From: Pseudomonadota bacterium
GTDB taxonomy: Bacteria; Pseudomonadota; Gammaproteobacteria; Steroidobacterales; Woeseiaceae
DNA: 50,063 nucleotides
Assembly (NCBI GenBank): GCA_027621915.1
Contig: JAQCAD010000022.1
Span: 1 to 50,063, forward strand
Direction of reading: 5' to 3'
A program made the position numbers and the translations under genes. Position 1 is the first letter of the stretch, and each line of letters opens with the position of its first letter. Of this stretch, positions 13,688 to 31,535 are shown piece by piece. The notes under the pieces were generated by a model that worked only from the letters and a program-made list of their open reading frames with translations, ran no database searches and was not told where the DNA came from.

Positions 13688-13707
13688 TACTGTTTATCCA
13701 TACAGGT
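13688..13707 (+). promoter_or_regulatory. LexA (SOS) box
   Basis: TACTGTTTATCCATACAGGT contains a perfect CTG-N10-CAG (13690-13705), the gammaproteobacterial LexA operator. It lies between the -10 box and the lexA ATG. A weaker half-match CTG-N10-CAC (13672-13687) overlaps the -10 box and could be a second, low-affinity site, as E. coli lexA also has two. Confidence 0.92.
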
Positions 13708-13715
13708 ATGCTCGA

Positions 13716-14333
13716 ATGCACCAACTGACCCCCAGGCAAAAGCAAATACTTGAATTGGTTCAAGACTTTATCAATGAATTTGGCATGCCTCCCACGCGTG
13801 CAGAGATCGCCAAAGAGCTTGGTTTCAAGTCAGCCAATGCTGCTGAAGAGCACCTTCGTGCCCTGCAAAAGAAAGGCGTTTTAGACCTTAAGCCTGGCGC
13901 TTCCAGGGGTATTCAGTTGAAAGACTCGCTGCGCGAACAACTGGGCCTGCCACTGGTTGGCAGAGTCGCTGCCGGCAGCCCGATTCTTGCTGAGGAACAT
14001 ATCGAAACACATTACCGGATCGATCCGGCGTTTTTTAATCCCAAGCCGCACTATCTCCTGCGGGTGCAGGGTATGAGTATGAAAAATGCGGGCATTCTTG
14101 ATGGCGACCTGGTCGCCGTACATCGAACGCCTGAAGTACGTAGTCGGCAGATTGTCGTTGCCCGCGTCGATGATGAGGTGACTGTCAAGCGTTACCAGCA
14201 GAAAGGGTCTGTGGTCTGGTTGCTGCCGGAGAACGAGGATTTTGAACCAATACAGGTTGATCTGAAAATACAGACGATGGTCATCGAGGGCGTCGTTGTC
14301 GGCGTTATCCGCGATGGCATGCCGCTTCACTAG
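13716..14333 (+). CDS. lexA: LexA repressor, SOS regulator
   Basis: Represses SOS genes and cleaves itself when RecA filaments form. Length 205 residues. A winged-helix DNA-binding domain occupies 1-70 ([22 protein letters not shown]). The self-cleavage bond is A86-G87 in VGRVAAGSP, and the S24-type dyad is S121 in QGMSMKNAG with K158 in VTVKRYQQ. All active residues are present. It heads an operon with imuA 17 bp downstream and is autoregulated through the box at 13688-13707. In several proteobacteria this arrangement carries a second lexA copy; whether another exists in this genome cannot be seen. Confidence 0.97.
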
Positions 14334-14350: not shown

Positions 14351-14983
14351 ATGTCCGACGCACTTCTGAACCTGCTTAAAAACCCGCACATCTGGCGGGG
14401 GCAGGCTCGGGCGGAAGACCCAAGTTGGCAGGGACTCGCCAGTGGTTACCCGAAACTTGATCAGCATCTGCCAGGCGGCGGCTGGCCGCGGCATGCCCTG
14501 ACCGAAATCCTGATGGATCACTATGGCACCGGCGAATTACAGCTCCTGATGCCGGCGCTGGCCCGTTTAAGCCAACTACGAGAGAGCAGCGAAGCTGGCT
14601 GGATTGCCTGGATAGCGCCACCTTTCGAACCCTACCCACCCGCGCTGGTACAGTGGGGCGTCAATCTTTCCCGAATATTGATCGTGCGGCCAAGGCAAGC
14701 GAAAGAGGTCTTGTGGGCAGCCGAGCAGGCGTTGTCATCAGGTAATTGTGCAGCGGTTCTTTTGTGGCCCGATGCATTCGATGATGCGGCCAGTCGACGG
14801 TTGCAGCTGGCTGCAGAAGCAGGGCAGAGCTGGGCAATTGCTTTTCGTTCCTTAAAGGCGCTGACGCAGTCGTCGGCTGCGGCTTTGCGCATTCGGTTGA
14901 GTGCAGGTGATAAAGGGACGGATCTGGGTATTCTGAAAAGTCGTGGTGGCAGGCCTGCCGTGGTACGCGACTATGCGGGTTAG
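14351..14983 (+). CDS. imuA: ImuA, RecA-like SOS mutasome protein
   Basis: A 210-residue protein related to the RecA core (SulA/RecA-like), part of the ImuA-ImuB-ImuC translesion machinery. It shows LASGYPKLDQHLPGGGWPRHALTEIL at the N-terminus, where RecA has its own dimer and nucleotide region, and AVLLWPDAFDDAASRRLQLAAE further on; the classic Walker A lysine motif is not evident. It is thought to help ImuB and the polymerase at RecA filaments. The operon order lexA-imuA-imuB-dnaE2 fixes the identity. Its TAG stop overlaps the left end of a MITE-like insertion. Confidence 0.88.
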   Translation: MSDALLNLLKNPHIWRGQARAEDPSWQGLASGYPKLDQHLPGGGWPRHALTEILMDHYGTGELQLLMPALARLSQLRESSEAGWIAWIAPPFEPYPPALVQWGVNLSRILIVRPRQAKEVLWAAEQALSSGNCAAVLLWPDAFDDAASRRLQLAAEAGQSWAIAFRSLKALTQSSAAALRIRLSAGDKGTDLGILKSRGGRPAVVRDYAG

Positions 14984-15230
14984 CAGCCTGTTGAAAAAAG
15001 TCTCATGCGGCACGATACGGCGTCAAAAGCGACCTCAAAAGCCGGGGCGCGCATTGTTTGGCAGTCACTATCAGATCTGTGCGATGCCAATTGAAACCCG
15101 GATGGCGAGAGCGGCGCTCGGCTCGTTTATTTCTTGCTTGGCGCTAAAGATCAATCCGCACCAGTCCTTGTACTGTTTTCGCGATGTCGGGCGGATTGCG
15201 CACTCGCCTGAGACTTTTTCAACAGGCTGC
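14983..15230. mobile_element. MITE-like element, 248 bp, in the imuA stop codon
   Basis: The ends are inverted repeats of 22-23 nt: GCAGCCTGTTGAAAAAAGTC... at 14983-15005 and its complement at 15209-15230, differing by one base in an A/T run. A TA dinucleotide flanks each side (14981-14982, 15231-15232), consistent with a TA target duplication. The interior encodes no transposase; the one open frame is read-through from upstream. Removing it restores imuA and imuB about 13 bp apart with the TAG stop intact. The parent transposon family is not known to me; TA targeting suggests IS630/Tc1-like or similar mobilisation. Confidence 0.82.
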
Positions 15231-15245
15231 TAGGTTGCTTTCGTC

Positions 15246-16934
15246 GTGCCCGCTTCGGATAAACCACCTGCCCGCCCTCGGGAAGCCCCCCCGACTCCCT
15301 CTGTAAGAAGCGGGCAAAGCAGGACACGCGGGCGTAAAGCGCCTGAACAGCTGTCGCTGGCACCGGCAGAGTTTACCCATCTGTCTCCAGTGCCATTTCC
15401 GGTAAGCCCACAGCGCCAGCTATGGCTTTGTATTTACCTGCCGGCATTACCGCTGGAGGCAATGGTGAGTATGGATGAAGCTGCCGCCGTTTTTGAGGAG
15501 CGGCAGGGTATTCGCAAGATTCTGCTGGCAAACGTAAAAGCCCGTGCGACAGGTATCGGACCTGGGCTGACGGTAAATGCAGCACTGGCATTGTTGCCAA
15601 CATTAAAGCTGGAGGAACGCAATCCAGCCAGAGAAGCAAGGGTTTTAAGGAGCCTGGCCAACTGGTCTGAGAAGTTCACGGCGTTCACTTCCATCGATGC
15701 ACCTTCATTGCTGCTGTTGGAAATTGCAGGTAGCCAGAGGCTTTTTGGCGGCATAAAACCATTACGTGAGCGCATCATCAGGGGACTTCAAAGCCAGGGT
15801 TTTTATGTCGAGGTGGCCATTGCACCGACACCACTTGCGGCCACCTGGCTGGCCCGCGCCGGGAAAAAGGTTTGTGTCCGTGACGCGCGAAACCTGGTTG
15901 GGAGGCTCGCCCCCTTACCCATTCATTGTCTCCGCTGGCCGGAAGCTATTTGTCATGCTCTAAAAGGTATGGGCATTACTACAGTGGGCGAAGCCTTACG
16001 TTTACCAAGACAGGGTTTTGCCAAACGTTTTAGTGCGGCTCGTTTGCTGGAACTCGATCGTGCCTTGGGTCGATTGCCGGATCCGCGCGTCAGTTACCGG
16101 TCGCCGGAGCGGTTTGTGGCGGATTTCGACCTGAACGAAGAAGAGAGCGACAGCGCTTTGCTCCTGAATGTTTGCCAGGAATTGCTGGTGAAACTCGAAC
16201 GTTTTCTCTTAAGCCGGCAAATGGCAGTGCAACAGGTCGAATTTGTTTTTTTTCACCTGCAGGCACCGGCAACGCACCTGGCGCTGGGCTGTGTGCGGGC
16301 AGATCGGGCGGTTCAACACTGGTTTGACTTAGCCGAAATCAAGCTCGATCGACTGATGTTTTCGGCACCGGTTATCGCCATCCAATTGCGTGGTGGAGAA
16401 GGACAGCGGTTTGCCGCAGAGACGGATCCACTGCCATTTTGCAAGCAGGAAAGGCCACAACGTAACACGTCGATTGTGCACCTCGCCGAGCGTTTGTCAG
16501 CTCGTATCGGTGATGAAGCCGTACATGGGGTCATGACGGTTGCTGAGCACCGACCGCAATATGCCTGGCAGCGGCGAAACGCATTCGATGACGTGCCGCA
16601 TTGTGCAAATGTGCCGGGCTATCAGGATCATCCTGATGTATCCGGATTGCTGGAAGGCATCCGGCGTACTAACAGCATCGTATTGCAGAGGCCACTATGG
16701 ATGTTGCAAGACCCTGAAAAGCTTGTAACGGAGCAGGGTATACCTTGCTACCAGGGCAGACTGAAATTGCTGGATGGGCCGGAACGCCTTGAGACGGGCT
16801 GGTGGGATGGTGACGGCATTGCCAGAGATTATTTTGTCGCTTGCAATGCCCGGGGTGCGCACCTCTGGATTTACCGCAATCGTGGCAAGGACCGGGATTG
16901 TCGCTCGTGGTATTTACACGGGATGTTCGGATGA
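15246..16934 (+). CDS. imuB: ImuB, inactive Y-family polymerase homologue
   Basis: A 562-residue Y-family-like protein that links the ImuC polymerase to the sliding clamp and ImuA in SOS mutagenesis. The Y-family fold begins at about residue 58 (QLWLCIYLPALPLEAM), where active polymerases have the first metal-binding aspartate; that residue is missing, as is normal for ImuB. The HhH and little-finger regions follow (LKGMGITTVGEALRLPRQGFAKR about 240-262). The N-terminal 55 residues are proline- and arginine-rich and include EQLSLAP (34-40), which resembles a clamp-binding motif. The GTG start at 15246 is uncertain because the MITE lies just upstream. The stop originally overlapped the dnaE2 start. 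Confidence 0.9.
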   Translation: MPASDKPPARPREAPPTPSVRSGQSRTRGRKAPEQLSLAPAEFTHLSPVPFPVSPQRQLWLCIYLPALPLEAMVSMDEAAAVFEERQGIRKILLANVKARATGIGPGLTVNAALALLPTLKLEERNPAREARVLRSLANWSEKFTAFTSIDAPSLLLLEIAGSQRLFGGIKPLRERIIRGLQSQGFYVEVAIAPTPLAATWLARAGKKVCVRDARNLVGRLAPLPIHCLRWPEAICHALKGMGITTVGEALRLPRQGFAKRFSAARLLELDRALGRLPDPRVSYRSPERFVADFDLNEEESDSALLLNVCQELLVKLERFLLSRQMAVQQVEFVFFHLQAPATHLALGCVRADRAVQHWFDLAEIKLDRLMFSAPVIAIQLRGGEGQRFAAETDPLPFCKQERPQRNTSIVHLAERLSARIGDEAVHGVMTVAEHRPQYAWQRRNAFDDVPHCANVPGYQDHPDVSGLLEGIRRTNSIVLQRPLWMLQDPEKLVTEQGIPCYQGRLKLLDGPERLETGWWDGDGIARDYFVACNARGAHLWIYRNRGKDRDCRSWYLHGMFG

Positions 16935-17031
16935 GTATGCACCCCGAATTAAGTGGGTATTTGGGTAGTGCTTTCAAGTGAATCTCTGCATTAGTGAATT
17001 GAGTACGTTCGTAGTGGGGATGTTCGGATGA
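16920..17031 (+). repeat. 82-bp insert flanked by 15-bp direct repeats at the imuB/dnaE2 junction
   Basis: GGGATGTTCGGATGA occurs at 16920-16934 (imuB stop) and again at 17017-17031 (dnaE2 start), 97 bp apart. Collapsing the two copies recreates an ATGA stop/start overlap between imuB and dnaE2, so the 82 bp in between look like a later insertion with a 15-bp target duplication, or the scar of a lost element. No inverted ends or open frame were seen in the insert. Confidence 0.75.
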
Positions 17032-20000
17032 CGGCTTATGCCGAGCTGCATGCCCTCAGCAACTTCACATTCCTGCGGGGTGCTTCTCACCCGGAAGAGC
17101 TTGTCGAAACAGCGACGAAACTTGGTTACGAAGCGCTGGCTATTACTGACGAGTGTTCCGTATCGGGAATTGTCCGCGCACATATGGCTGCAAAGGAAAG
17201 CGGCCTTAAAAAACTGATCATCGGCTCAGAATTTCGTCTTGAGAGTGCATTGAAACTTGTTGTACTTGCACAAAACCGGTCGGGGTATGCAGCGTTATGC
17301 CGGCTGATCACCCGGGGCAGGCGCGCGGCAAAGAAAGGCAGCTACAAACTGAATGCAGAGGATTTTCGTGACGGGCTGAATGATTGCCTTGTGCTGTGGG
17401 TTCCTGGCAATCAGTTGCTGCTGGGCGCAGAAGACGCGTGGATTACCGAGGTCTTTCGTGATCGTTTGTGGATAGCAGTTGAGTTGCTGGCAGATGGCCT
17501 CGAACGGTTGCGCCTCGAACGTTTGCAGCATTTGGGCCAGGCACTGAATCTCCCGCTGGTCGCCAGTGGTGACGTGCACATGCACTGTCGTGAGCGTCGT
17601 GCCTTGCAGGATACGCTGACGGCCATTCGCGAAGGTGTGACGCTGGACCGGGCCGGTTTCGCGCTCTATCCCAACGGCGAGCGATATCTAAGGTCTCAAG
17701 AGACCCTCTGCAAGAGCTATCCTCAGGAGCTGTTGCAGGAAACCATTCGCATCGCCGATTCAATCCAGTTTTCGCTCGACGAATTACATTATGAGTATCC
17801 CGATGAACTGGTGCCAAAAGGTGAAACACCGACAACCTGGTTGCGGTATCTCACTGAAACGGGCATGCGTAAACGCTGGCCGGCTGGCACACCGGATAAA
17901 GTAGCAAAGCTGGTTGAACATGAACTCGAACTGATTCGCGAGCTGAAGTACGAACCATTTTTTCTGACGGTTTATGACATCGTTTCGTTTGCCAGGAGCC
18001 AGAAAATTCTTTGCCAGGGGCGTGGTTCCGCTGCAAATTCGGCAGTCTGTTTCTGCCTTGGAATTACGGAGGTAGACCCTGATCGTATGGCGACACTGGT
18101 CGAACGTTTTATTTCCAGGGAGCGTAACGAACCGCCGGATATTGATGTCGACTTCGAACATGAGCGACGTGAAGAAGTTATCCAGTACCTCTATCAGAAG
18201 TACGGCAGGGAAAGAGCGGCGTTGGCCGCAACGGTCATTACTTACCGCCCGCGAAGCGCGCTGCGTGATATCGGCAAAGCGCTGGGGTTAAGTGGCCTGC
18301 AGGTCGACAGGCTGGCCAGATCGATGCAATGGTGGGATGGTCAGGAAGTCGATGACAGTCGCGTCCTCGAAGCGGGGCTGGATCCGGCGAGCCCGCTAAT
18401 CAGGCGTCTGTTGTATCTCGTCCGCCAGGCGATGGGTTTCCCACGACATCTCTCACAACATGTAGGCGGCTTCGTCATCTCGAACGGACCTCTGTCTGAA
18501 CTGGTGCCGGTCGAGAATGCCACGATGGCAGATCGAACGGTCATTCAGTGGGAGAAAAATGACCTGGAAGATCTGGGTTTGCTCAAGGTGGATGTACTCG
18601 GTCTTGGCATGCTCACTGCCATTCGGCGAAGTTTTGACCTGATACGGGATTACGATGGACGCGAATACACGCTGGCTACGGTACCGGCCGAGGACCCACT
18701 TGTTTACGACATGATTTGTGACGGAGACACGATGGGTGTTTTCCAGATCGAATCACGAGCACAGATGGCCATGTTGCCGCGATTGAAACCACGCTGTTAT
18801 TACGATCTGGTGATCGAGGTTGCGATCATACGGCCAGGACCGATACAGGGTGACATGGTGCACCCCTATCTTCGCCGCCGGAGTGGCGAAGAAGCCGTCG
18901 AATACCCGAGTGATGAAGTCAGAGACGTTCTGCAGCGAACCCTGGGTGTCCCCATCTTTCAGGAGCAGGTGATGCAACTGGCGGTTGTTGCAGCCGGGTT
19001 TACGCCGGGTGAAGCGGATCGCCTGCGGAGGGCGATGGCTGCCTGGAAGCGTCGTGGCGGGCTGGGTCCGTTCGAGGAAAAGCTCATCCGGGGGATGCGG
19101 GAGCGGGGCTACGAGGAAGGGTTTGCCCGGCAGATCTTTCAGCAGATCCTGGGTTTCGGCGAATACGGTTTTCCTGAGTCTCATTCCGCCAGTTTCGCGT
19201 TACTCGTTTACGTGTCGTGCTGGCTTAAGCGCCATGAGCCGGCGGCGTTTACCTGTGCATTGCTCAATAGCCAGCCAATGGGTTTTTATTCGGCATCGCA
19301 GTTAACACAGGATGCCCGGCGTCATGGTGTTCCGGTGCGGCCTGCCGATGTGAACGAAAGTGAATGGGATTCGAGCCTTGAGCGCACACAAAATGGTAAG
19401 CCGGCACTGAGGCTTGGATTGCGACAGGTCAAGGGACTGTCTGAGGCAGCCGGGCAGGTCATCGTCGTAAAGAGAGAACGTCCGTACACAAGCATTCAGC
19501 AATTGCTCGAACGGACAGCGCTCGATCGACGTGAGCTGAGTGCGCTGGCGGCTGCGGGTGCGCTGAAGTCCCTTGCGGGGCACCGGCACAAGGTTCGATG
19601 GACGGTGGCAGGTGTAGAGGAACCCACACCGCTTTTCCCGTCGCTGGACCGATATGAGGCCACGCCAATGCTCAGGCGACCGACAGAGGGCCAGGACATT
19701 GTCGCCGACTACCAAAGCCTTGGTTTGACGTTGGGGCGTCATCCTGTGGCACTCATTCGCGAATACCTGGATGCCTGGCGGTATGTTAGGGCTGCAGATC
19801 TTGCGAAACTCTCTTCAGGAAAGCTGATTCACATTGCTGGACTGGTCATTACAAAACAACGACCCGGGACCGCAAGTGGCGTCACTTTTGTCACGCTTGA
19901 AGACGAAACCGGCTGTAGCAACCTGGTTGTCTGGAAAAAGACCGCAGAAGAGCAACGTGATGTTCTGTTGAATGCTCGCCTGATGGGTGTGCAGGGAGAG

Positions 20001-20102
20001 TTACAAAAAGAAGGGAAGGTGATCCACGTGATTGCGAGAAAGCTGCTGGATCACAGTGCGTTGTTGGGAGAATTGACCGTAAAGTCGAGAAATTTCCACT
20101 GA
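17028..20102 (+). CDS. dnaE2: Error-prone DNA polymerase DnaE2 (ImuC)
   Basis: C-family polymerase of 1024 residues used for damage-induced mutagenesis. A PHP domain (about 1-200, starting YAELHALSNFTFLRGASHPEE) leads to the polymerase core with catalytic aspartates D371 and D373 in PPDIDVDFEHERREEV, the GRGSAANS motif just before it, fingers with VGGFVISNGPL, a helix-hairpin-helix region near 780-850, and a C-terminal OB-fold (LVITKQRPGTASGVTFVTLEDETG). The length and lack of a tau-binding tail fit DnaE2 rather than DnaE1. It is the last gene of the LexA-controlled operon. The ATG follows a GGGG stretch in the duplicated junction. Confidence 0.96.
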   Translation: MTAYAELHALSNFTFLRGASHPEELVETATKLGYEALAITDECSVSGIVRAHMAAKESGLKKLIIGSEFRLESALKLVVLAQNRSGYAALCRLITRGRRAAKKGSYKLNAEDFRDGLNDCLVLWVPGNQLLLGAEDAWITEVFRDRLWIAVELLADGLERLRLERLQHLGQALNLPLVASGDVHMHCRERRALQDTLTAIREGVTLDRAGFALYPNGERYLRSQETLCKSYPQELLQETIRIADSIQFSLDELHYEYPDELVPKGETPTTWLRYLTETGMRKRWPAGTPDKVAKLVEHELELIRELKYEPFFLTVYDIVSFARSQKILCQGRGSAANSAVCFCLGITEVDPDRMATLVERFISRERNEPPDIDVDFEHERREEVIQYLYQKYGRERAALAATVITYRPRSALRDIGKALGLSGLQVDRLARSMQWWDGQEVDDSRVLEAGLDPASPLIRRLLYLVRQAMGFPRHLSQHVGGFVISNGPLSELVPVENATMADRTVIQWEKNDLEDLGLLKVDVLGLGMLTAIRRSFDLIRDYDGREYTLATVPAEDPLVYDMICDGDTMGVFQIESRAQMAMLPRLKPRCYYDLVIEVAIIRPGPIQGDMVHPYLRRRSGEEAVEYPSDEVRDVLQRTLGVPIFQEQVMQLAVVAAGFTPGEADRLRRAMAAWKRRGGLGPFEEKLIRGMRERGYEEGFARQIFQQILGFGEYGFPESHSASFALLVYVSCWLKRHEPAAFTCALLNSQPMGFYSASQLTQDARRHGVPVRPADVNESEWDSSLERTQNGKPALRLGLRQVKGLSEAAGQVIVVKRERPYTSIQQLLERTALDRRELSALAAAGALKSLAGHRHKVRWTVAGVEEPTPLFPSLDRYEATPMLRRPTEGQDIVADYQSLGLTLGRHPVALIREYLDAWRYVRAADLAKLSSGKLIHIAGLVITKQRPGTASGVTFVTLEDETGCSNLVVWKKTAEEQRDVLLNARLMGVQGELQKEGKVIHVIARKLLDHSALLGELTVKSRNFH

Positions 20103-30393: not shown

Positions 30394-31535
30394 TGGTCCG
30401 ATCCTGATACGGGTTGAATTTTATACGGACTGTGTGAATTGACAGCGTCTATGTATTGCTCGATATGGCGTGCTTCGAGTCTGAGATAGCTCTCAACAGC
30501 AGAGAAAAATTCGGGTCTGGCCAGCCAGTGTGCGGACCAGGTGGTGACCGGTACGAACCCACGACTGATTTTGTGCTCTCCCTGTGTGCCAGGTTCAAAA
30601 ATTCGCCGCTTGTGTTCGATGCAATACTCAATGCCCTGGTAGTAGCAGGTTTCAAAATGCAGCGCATCGTAGTGGTCGTCGGCACCCCAGTATCTGCCAT
30701 ACAGGGTATTTTCCGTATCGAAGAACACCGCAGCGGCGACAGGGGTCCGATCCTTTTCTGCGACGATGACAAGAATATTGTCAGGAAGCCGTTTTGATAC
30801 CTCGATGAAGAAATCGTAACTGAAGTACGGCATTCCACCCCGGCGCAAAAACGTGATGCTGATCAGTTCATAAACATCGTTCCACAATGCAGCATCGGTT
30901 TCATGGCCTTTGAAACGTCGAAACGTGATGCCTTGCTCGCGAACCCGCCGACGATCGCGACAGGCTTTCTTTCGTTTTGCTGAACTGAATGTGCGCAGAA
31001 AATCGTCGAAACTGACGTATTGCCGATTGTGCCAGTGAAACTGGCAATCCTTACGCACTTGCAGGCCACCGTCACGCAGATACTGCAGTTCCGATTCTTC
31101 AGGGAAAAGCACGTGCAGTGATGAAAATCCTTCGTCTGCGGCAAATTTTCCTGCAGCGTCGACCAATTCAGCTTTGTGTTGCTCTTCGGAGGCCAGTAGG
31201 CGAGTGCTGGGTGCCGGTGTAAAGGGAATCGCAGATACCAGTTTGGGATAATAGGCGAGGCCAGCCTTCTCGTAGGCTTGCGCCCAACTCCAGTCAAAGA
31301 CGAATTCACCCCAGGAATGCCGCTTCTCATACAGCGGCATGGCAGCCTGCAACTTGCCGGCCTTGTCACGAAGCCCCAGGTGGCGTGGTATCCACCCCGT
31401 TTCCGCGGATGCCGATCCCGAGGACTCGGCAGCATAAAGAAATTCGTATCTGAGAAACGGGAATTGATTTCCGACCAGCCTGTTCCATTCCGCCGCTGAG
31501 AAATCACTGAGTTTATTGGCGACTTCTATGCGCAT
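30390..31535 (-). CDS. FemAB/GNAT-like protein of the DUF482 (PF04339) family
   Basis: A 381-residue protein with two GNAT-like halves. Landmarks are NQFPFLRYEFLYAAESSGS near the N-terminus, FDWSWAQAYEKAGLAYYPKL (about 95-115), SSLHVLFPEE, and in the C-terminal half YFSYDFFIEVSKRLPDNILVI and CYYQGIEYCIEHKRRIFEPG with GEHKISRGF. The family is annotated as peptidoglycan-biosynthesis-like or acetyltransferase, but the reaction is not established. It sits between trxB (30 bp upstream) and aat (4-bp overlap). The related Fem enzymes use aminoacyl-tRNA, which makes the coupling to aat suggestive but unproven. Confidence 0.82.
   Translation of the reverse strand: MRIEVANKLSDFSAAEWNRLVGNQFPFLRYEFLYAAESSGSASAETGWIPRHLGLRDKAGKLQAAMPLYEKRHSWGEFVFDWSWAQAYEKAGLAYYPKLVSAIPFTPAPSTRLLASEEQHKAELVDAAGKFAADEGFSSLHVLFPEESELQYLRDGGLQVRKDCQFHWHNRQYVSFDDFLRTFSSAKRKKACRDRRRVREQGITFRRFKGHETDAALWNDVYELISITFLRRGGMPYFSYDFFIEVSKRLPDNILVIVAEKDRTPVAAAVFFDTENTLYGRYWGADDHYDALHFETCYYQGIEYCIEHKRRIFEPGTQGEHKISRGFVPVTTWSAHWLARPEFFSAVESYLRLEARHIEQYIDAVNSHSPYKIQPVSGSDH

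Follow-up and report, generated by a model that had tools for sequence, protein, structure and literature searches.

The analyzed stretch (hereafter the window, 50,063 nt of a Woeseiaceae genome) carries lexA, imuA, imuB and dnaE2 in a single shared direction, with an additional segment between imuA and imuB (Table 1). For this segment, the initial annotation had described a 248-bp element with terminal inverted repeats of 22 to 23 nt lying between TA dinucleotides, and both its coordinates and its sequence are as claimed, the left and right ends being one A apart. The length of the element stands, but its unity does not, given that a separate 55-bp repeat, named here H, is nested inside the MITE. 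Moreover, the stop codon of imuA, TAG (14981-14983), is made up of the left TA together with the initial G of the insert, as had been proposed.

The long self-complementary stretch foreseen for this junction is borne out by the folding of the molecule both as DNA and as RNA. The single-stranded DNA fold of 14981-15234 has a z of -4.8, and the RNA fold of 14975-15260 reaches -116 kcal/mol with a z of -3.7, none of 200 shuffles being as good in either case. The ORF list contains no frame of 100 aa inside the 248 bp, and Rfam over 14800-15400 gave a single match, below the threshold and outside the element. Short, devoid of a transposase gene and ending in terminal inverted repeats, the imuA-imuB element has the general build of a MITE.

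Table 1. Features of the lexA-imuA-imuB-dnaE2 region and of the insert at the imuA-imuB junction (window coordinates)
Feature	Position	Strand	Remarks
LexA-box-like site, exact CTGT-N8-ACAG	13690-13705	+	Upstream of lexA
lexA	13716-14333	+	NCBIfam TIGR00498
imuA	14351-14983	+	NCBIfam NF033429; ends at the element; C-terminal residues RDYAG, shared with G007
Target duplication, left TA	14981-14982		Supplies the TA of the imuA stop codon; empty site in G007
Whole insert, 248 bp	14983-15230		CTAG-targeting MITE of ~193 bp plus nested H repeat
Left terminal inverted repeat, 23 nt	14983-15005	+	First G completes TAG; GCAGCCTGTTGAAAAAAGTCTCA; family alignment
Nested H repeat, 55 bp	15144-15198	+	CTAAAGATCAATCCGC - 31 nt - GCGGATTG
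Right terminal inverted repeat, 22 nt	15209-15230	-	Reverse complement GCAGCCTGTTGAAAAAGTCTCA; family alignment
Right TA of the target duplication	15231-15232		
imuB	15246-16934	+	GTG start; named from position and Pfam IMS domain
Extra imuB-dnaE2 spacer	16935-17027	+	Bounded by the 15-bp direct repeat GGGATGTTCGGATGA
dnaE2	17028-20102	+	NCBIfam NF004225

Empty site, family members and candidate parents

A comparison with the congener G007, whose ImuB is 77% identical to that of the window, reveals a junction made of both window flanks with one TA (...GCGGGC TAG GTTGCTTTCATCGTG...), which up to the imuB start reads GCGGGC TAG GTTGCTTTCATC GTG. Also, the imuA-imuB junctions of G008, G002 and G006 lack the element. 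Because G007 holds the empty site, the spacer is an insertion that left ImuA unchanged, and the stop without the element is likewise TAG, as the initial annotation had anticipated. The distance between the imuA stop and the imuB start goes from 12 nt in G007 to 262 nt in the window, so that two tightly linked genes are indeed parted by the element. Moreover, the usual end of ImuA is kept, since the DYAG* of the window also finishes the protein in five of the 11 relatives in which the imuA end was located (among 29 relatives' loci examined), the remaining six being different; this end is RDYAG in G007, G002, G019 and G022, and QDYAG in G008. The initial annotation had named, as an outcome that would speak against it, relatives carrying the same spacer without any empty site; the comparison of the junction yielded an empty site instead. 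With a TA on both sides in the window and a single one in G007, the target-site duplication and the empty site expected of a MITE are both present.

A blastn search with the element gave matches in 30 of the 99 genomes searched, some of them to the nested H only, and full-length family members were found at other sites in other genomes. An alignment of 13 members, window included (130-252 bp as cut with their TAs), displays common TAGCAGSSTGTTGAAAAAGYCTCA-like ends and a common core, most of the members being of ~144 bp, some of 182-197 bp and one, decayed, of 130 bp. H is missing from all 12 other aligned members, and the window element minus H has exactly the length of the L108 copy (193 bp without TAs). 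Also, a scan of the genome contigs for the right end recovered 14 stretches, one of them in a Woeseiaceae MAG. Plasmid and phage collections gave no match, and one end pattern searched in viral contigs gave 0 matches. A second subfamily of ~165 bp with the same outer ends is present in G013, G043, G019 and G006 (L129-L145, L233-L260), several of its members having a 39-bp hairpin at one end; the end matches in G013 are 23 forward and 22 reverse.

The further copies that the initial annotation had proposed to search for are thus dispersed across other genomes, as in a MITE family, so that the second outcome named there as adverse, a lack of any other copy combined with a lack of polymorphism at the site, was not borne out. 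The genome of the window itself (G000, 95% complete) holds just one relative of the element, which is decayed (G000:C43:85672-85801). No second intact copy was found in it, and the exact 16-nt end had no match in this genome beyond the two ends of the element. When two mismatches are allowed, this end appears at eight places in G000 and its reversed control at three.

Regarding the source of mobility, a 1285-bp insertion sequence (IS) of G043 shares the outer ends of the element and contains two transposase pieces with DUF772 and DDE_Tnp_1, and in G080 such ends are found beside transposase fragments at contig edges. G079 carries an IS with a 370-aa IS5-family transposase (NF033581), whose left end, TTAACAGGCTGTTGAAAAAG, provides the TAA that terminates a frame of 457 codons. 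The likeness between the element ends and the IS or IS fragments of G043 and G080 extends only over ~17-22 bp. Based on these candidates, an IS5-type DDE transposase would move the MITE. The element is a member of a family of short MITEs, probably of IS5 type, that are present within the bacterial order of the window. A parent transposase in the genome of the window, for which the initial annotation had also proposed a search, did not appear: the N-terminus of the G043 transposase (L126) found no match in G000. The MITE-like reading is nonetheless backed by the empty site, by the full-length relatives elsewhere and by a candidate parent IS with similar outer ends.

Target duplication and stop-codon insertion

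For the analysis of the targets, 95 loci picked from hit lists (window, L106-L145, L168-L181, L233-L272) provided 65 non-redundant elements with paired ends, which are a sample and not all copies. CTAG is present on both sides in 43 of these 65 elements, and TA is missing at one or both ends in 12, either decayed or mis-set. The other 10 have YTAN on both sides without being CTAG/CTAG; eight of them differ only at the outer base, one has an inner-base difference and one has CTAA on both sides (L141). Because eight of the 10 informative elements differ at the outer base only, a TA duplication is favored over a 4-bp one, the G and C at the termini then being part of the element itself. A preference for TA within CTAG is a known property of IS630. 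L141, on the other hand, fits the 4-bp duplication model. Also, since the base before the target TA is T in the window and C in G007, the window copy may have originated from a duplication of all four bases of CTAG, with a synonymous change occurring later.

The history that we hold to be highly probable is that of a non-autonomous MITE, probably moved by an IS5-type enzyme, inserted into the stop codon of imuA. The MITE would enter at TA, CTAG being strongly preferred, in this case at the TA of the imuA stop; the TA would then be duplicated and the terminal G of the element would restore TAG, leaving ImuA intact. H, as a repeat of another kind, would have arrived later inside the MITE.

The position of the window element is shared by many of its relatives. 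Targets were classed after joining the flanks, using a simple ORF caller, and the background consisted of 222 CTAG sites in 450,063 bp (the window plus 20 stretches of 20 kb). Among the 65 elements, 38 targets correspond to a stop codon, 17 are inside a frame and 10 are intergenic, whereas the background CTAG sites distribute as 29, 132 and 61, respectively. For stop codons versus intergenic sites, this gives an odds ratio of 8.0 (p=1.3e-7). The ratio stays between 7.1 and 10.9 whether the minimum gene length is set at 60, 100 or 150 aa, and whichever of four element sets is taken (the full set, the clean-ended, the window-type or the non-G013 elements); in the window-type subset, 18 of 25 are at stop codons. 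Moreover, an open frame of at least 150 codons stops exactly at the TAG in 55 of 113 element ends, compared with 16 of 224 control CTAG sites. Of 10 tested flanking frames that end at an element, nine have Pfam domains and one has none; they include sirohaem synthase, aldehyde dehydrogenase, HemD and a CheA-like kinase. Four of the 38 stop-codon targets are common to two convergent genes, and one target is common to the convergent genes of a methionine sulfoxide reductase and a uracil-DNA glycosylase. Insertion at stop codons is therefore a habit of the family in the sample of 65. In addition, the TAG that closes an integron integrase gene of G013 lies at the border of a family member (L122, G013:C3).

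A TAA or TAG stop survives the insertion because the element supplies a G after TA at either end; then, under the TA duplication model, a TAA or TAG hit at its TA becomes TAG in either orientation. The excess of stop codons is best explained by the combination of TA/CTAG targeting, this automatic rescue of TAA and TAG, and selection against insertions in coding frames, and selection against insertions in promoters probably also contributes. From sequence alone, targeting and selection are inseparable as the cause of the excess.

A possible, although doubtful, explanation is that the stop-codon position is a matter of chance, CTAG being rare in genes and the surviving copies falling where CTAG is tolerated. 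This would agree with CTAG as the preferred target (the 43 of 65 mentioned above), with the expectation that selection purges insertions in coding frames and with a background of intergenic CTAG sites that includes promoter regions, where an insertion may be harmful. However, stop codons are still eightfold over-represented when compared with intergenic CTAG alone, and a comparison with CTAG sites at no more than 60 nt from a gene 3' end maintains an odds ratio of 7.9 (p=9e-4), albeit on small numbers (three elements and 18 sites).

The nested H repeat

The 16-mer at the head of H occurs exactly 13 times in G000, whereas its reversed control gives 0, and it is present in 23 of 60 genomes. A middle of 31-33 nt, variable in sequence, is found in 57 of the 59 unique copies that have both ends. 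A tRNA lies within 300 bp of 17 of the 59 copies, compared with 0.7% of background positions (the background has five tRNAs), and 17 of the 59 show a direct repeat of upstream sequence that starts 0-2 bases past the base after GCGGATTG, a situation found at four of 3000 random places; these H rates may run high, given that part of the places was fetched and that one selection favored paired copies. The edge-anchored 12-mer is found again upstream in 18 H copies, whereas if the anchor is set five bases earlier, this occurs in three. In an earlier control with the anchor moved by 40-48 bp, 14 of 65 were positive versus 24 of 65, a poor control given that the shift falls inside the same repeats. 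By eye, the repeated sequence beside H is often a tRNA or the 3' end of a gene, and tandem arrays occur (H loci include L033, L038, L194, L204, L214, L215 and L228). The copy of the window has no edge-anchored upstream repeat.

With regard to gene orientation, the nearest upstream neighbor faces H with its 3' end in 31 of 51 cases and with its 5' end in 20, and the downstream neighbors are divided 26 versus 27. Gene 3' ends in general are thus favored by H at most modestly, the strong signals being limited to the excess of tRNAs and to the repeats anchored at the edge. By eye, an H repeat lies after rpsJ in G000, and after it the 3' end of rpsJ appears a second time (L309, L311, L310, L352 set). 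Also by eye, rpsJ of G008 is followed by H and a decayed-looking 3' copy, rpsJ of G011 is followed by a decayed-looking copy, and G032 has an H with a 3' end resembling that of rpsJ after it. The H 16-mer is also found in eight stretches of viral contigs, possibly by chance.

Two other identities for H were considered and rejected. A large cargo was looked for in 24 H copies at 20 further loci (1.5-20 kb); 16 had no second right flank upstream, and the second right-flank copy seen upstream of H in eight of 24 was in all cases within 37-201 bp. An integron attC site was rejected on co-occurrence with the integron integrase: the H-rich G004, G002, G020, G022 and G032 have no match over the TIGR02249 cut-off, G013 and G018 have an integrase match and no exact H, and G000, G014, G024 and G068 have both.

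H may represent a minute unit capable of integration, or else a site prone to local duplication. As a tentative proposal, of which we are far from convinced, the insert could bring together two undescribed strategies. In the first one, the mover of the MITE would seek the CTAG or TAA of stop codons, with ends that rebuild the stop both ways. In the second one, H, as a unit of 55-57 bp with fixed ends and a variable middle of 31-33 nt, would integrate between T and GG (by eye) in the 3' ends of tRNAs and genes and would leave, directly from its right edge onward, a copy of that 3' end, sometimes in tandem.

Possible consequences for the mutasome operon and relation to known elements

In the operon, the translational coupling between imuA and imuB would be lost and the output of imuB-dnaE2 would be lowered, because the junction of 12 nt has given way to 262 nt of RNA that folds strongly, in which neither a new promoter nor an exact LexA box was found. 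A search of 14900-15300 gave no site resembling a promoter or a terminator, and the only exact CTGT-N8-ACAG of the window other than the one upstream of lexA, a motif which we take to be the LexA box, is at 30430.

A second spacer lies before dnaE2, and it is present as a single copy in the genome of the window. The copies of its bounding direct repeat, GGGATGTTCGGATGA, are located at 16920-16934 and 17017-17031. From the imuB stop to the YAELH codon of dnaE2 there are 102 nt in the window and five in five congeners, the extra 97 nt being bounded by a repeat of the imuB end that restores the overlapping start of dnaE2.

Sequences of the family are also seen in this operon in other genomes. In G019, a member occupies the TAG stop of imuB, before dnaE2 (L112 1783-1978, G019:C64), and G014 has a left-end-like 17-mer with one mismatch at the imuA stop. 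These two cases are suggestive of a hot spot in the operon, although this reading is post hoc. It would go further to propose that the element was co-opted to tune the operon and that the repeated hits (window, G019 and G014) reflect selection, which we consider improbable: these ends do occur at imuA or imuB stops in three genera, but the count was made after the fact, the G014 match is limited to that imperfect 17-mer, and target availability accounts for the hits too. That the mutasome operon instead had this spacer from the start, as a regulatory RNA or an attenuator and with no insertion at all, would agree with the strong folding of the spacer but is hardly credible in view of the congeners' junctions without the spacer, the clean TA-bounded empty site, the same ends at unrelated loci and the lack of any Rfam family in 14800-15400.

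For the insertion of a stop-codon MITE, the nearest described relatives in a literature search of partial coverage are MITEPsy1 and IS5, and no report of a stop-codon preference in a MITE was found in that search. According to the passages on it, MITEPsy1 from Pseudomonas syringae pv. phaseolicola is an element of 100 nt that inserts at CTAG or YTAA with a 4-nt duplication and is proposed as a derivative of ISPsy2 (PMC3189936). It resembles the present element in being short, in its terminal inverted repeats, in its CTAG target and in its proposed derivation from an IS; however, it has other ends and the 4-nt duplication, and those same passages describe no preference for stop codons, a term that the article uses a single time, with regard to transposase genes. 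As regards IS5, the candidate parents described here score as members of this family (NF033581), for which the sections consulted give a CTAG/CTAA target, although E. coli IS5 usually makes a 4-bp repeat whereas the present pattern favors a TA duplication (PMC11677980). In the part of the literature covered, a further comparison is offered by the pneumococcal RUP, described together with IS630-Spn1 as a 107-bp element at TA sites with ends common to the parent IS (PMC2229807). It is like the present element in being short, in its TA sites and in having a parent IS with the same ends, and unlike it in its IS630-type parent and its length of 107 bp.

Finally, by hitting the TA of a stop codon and carrying the third base of the stop, an element of this kind would have a harmless route into dense operons and convergent junctions. 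If the targeting is active and not purely selective, stop codons would constitute a safe harbor for a transposase. At this locus, the presence of the element predicts an altered ratio of ImuA to ImuB-DnaE2, which is testable. Moreover, the nested H points to a second kind of very small insertion which, in this bacterial family, is located close to tRNAs and to the ends of genes.
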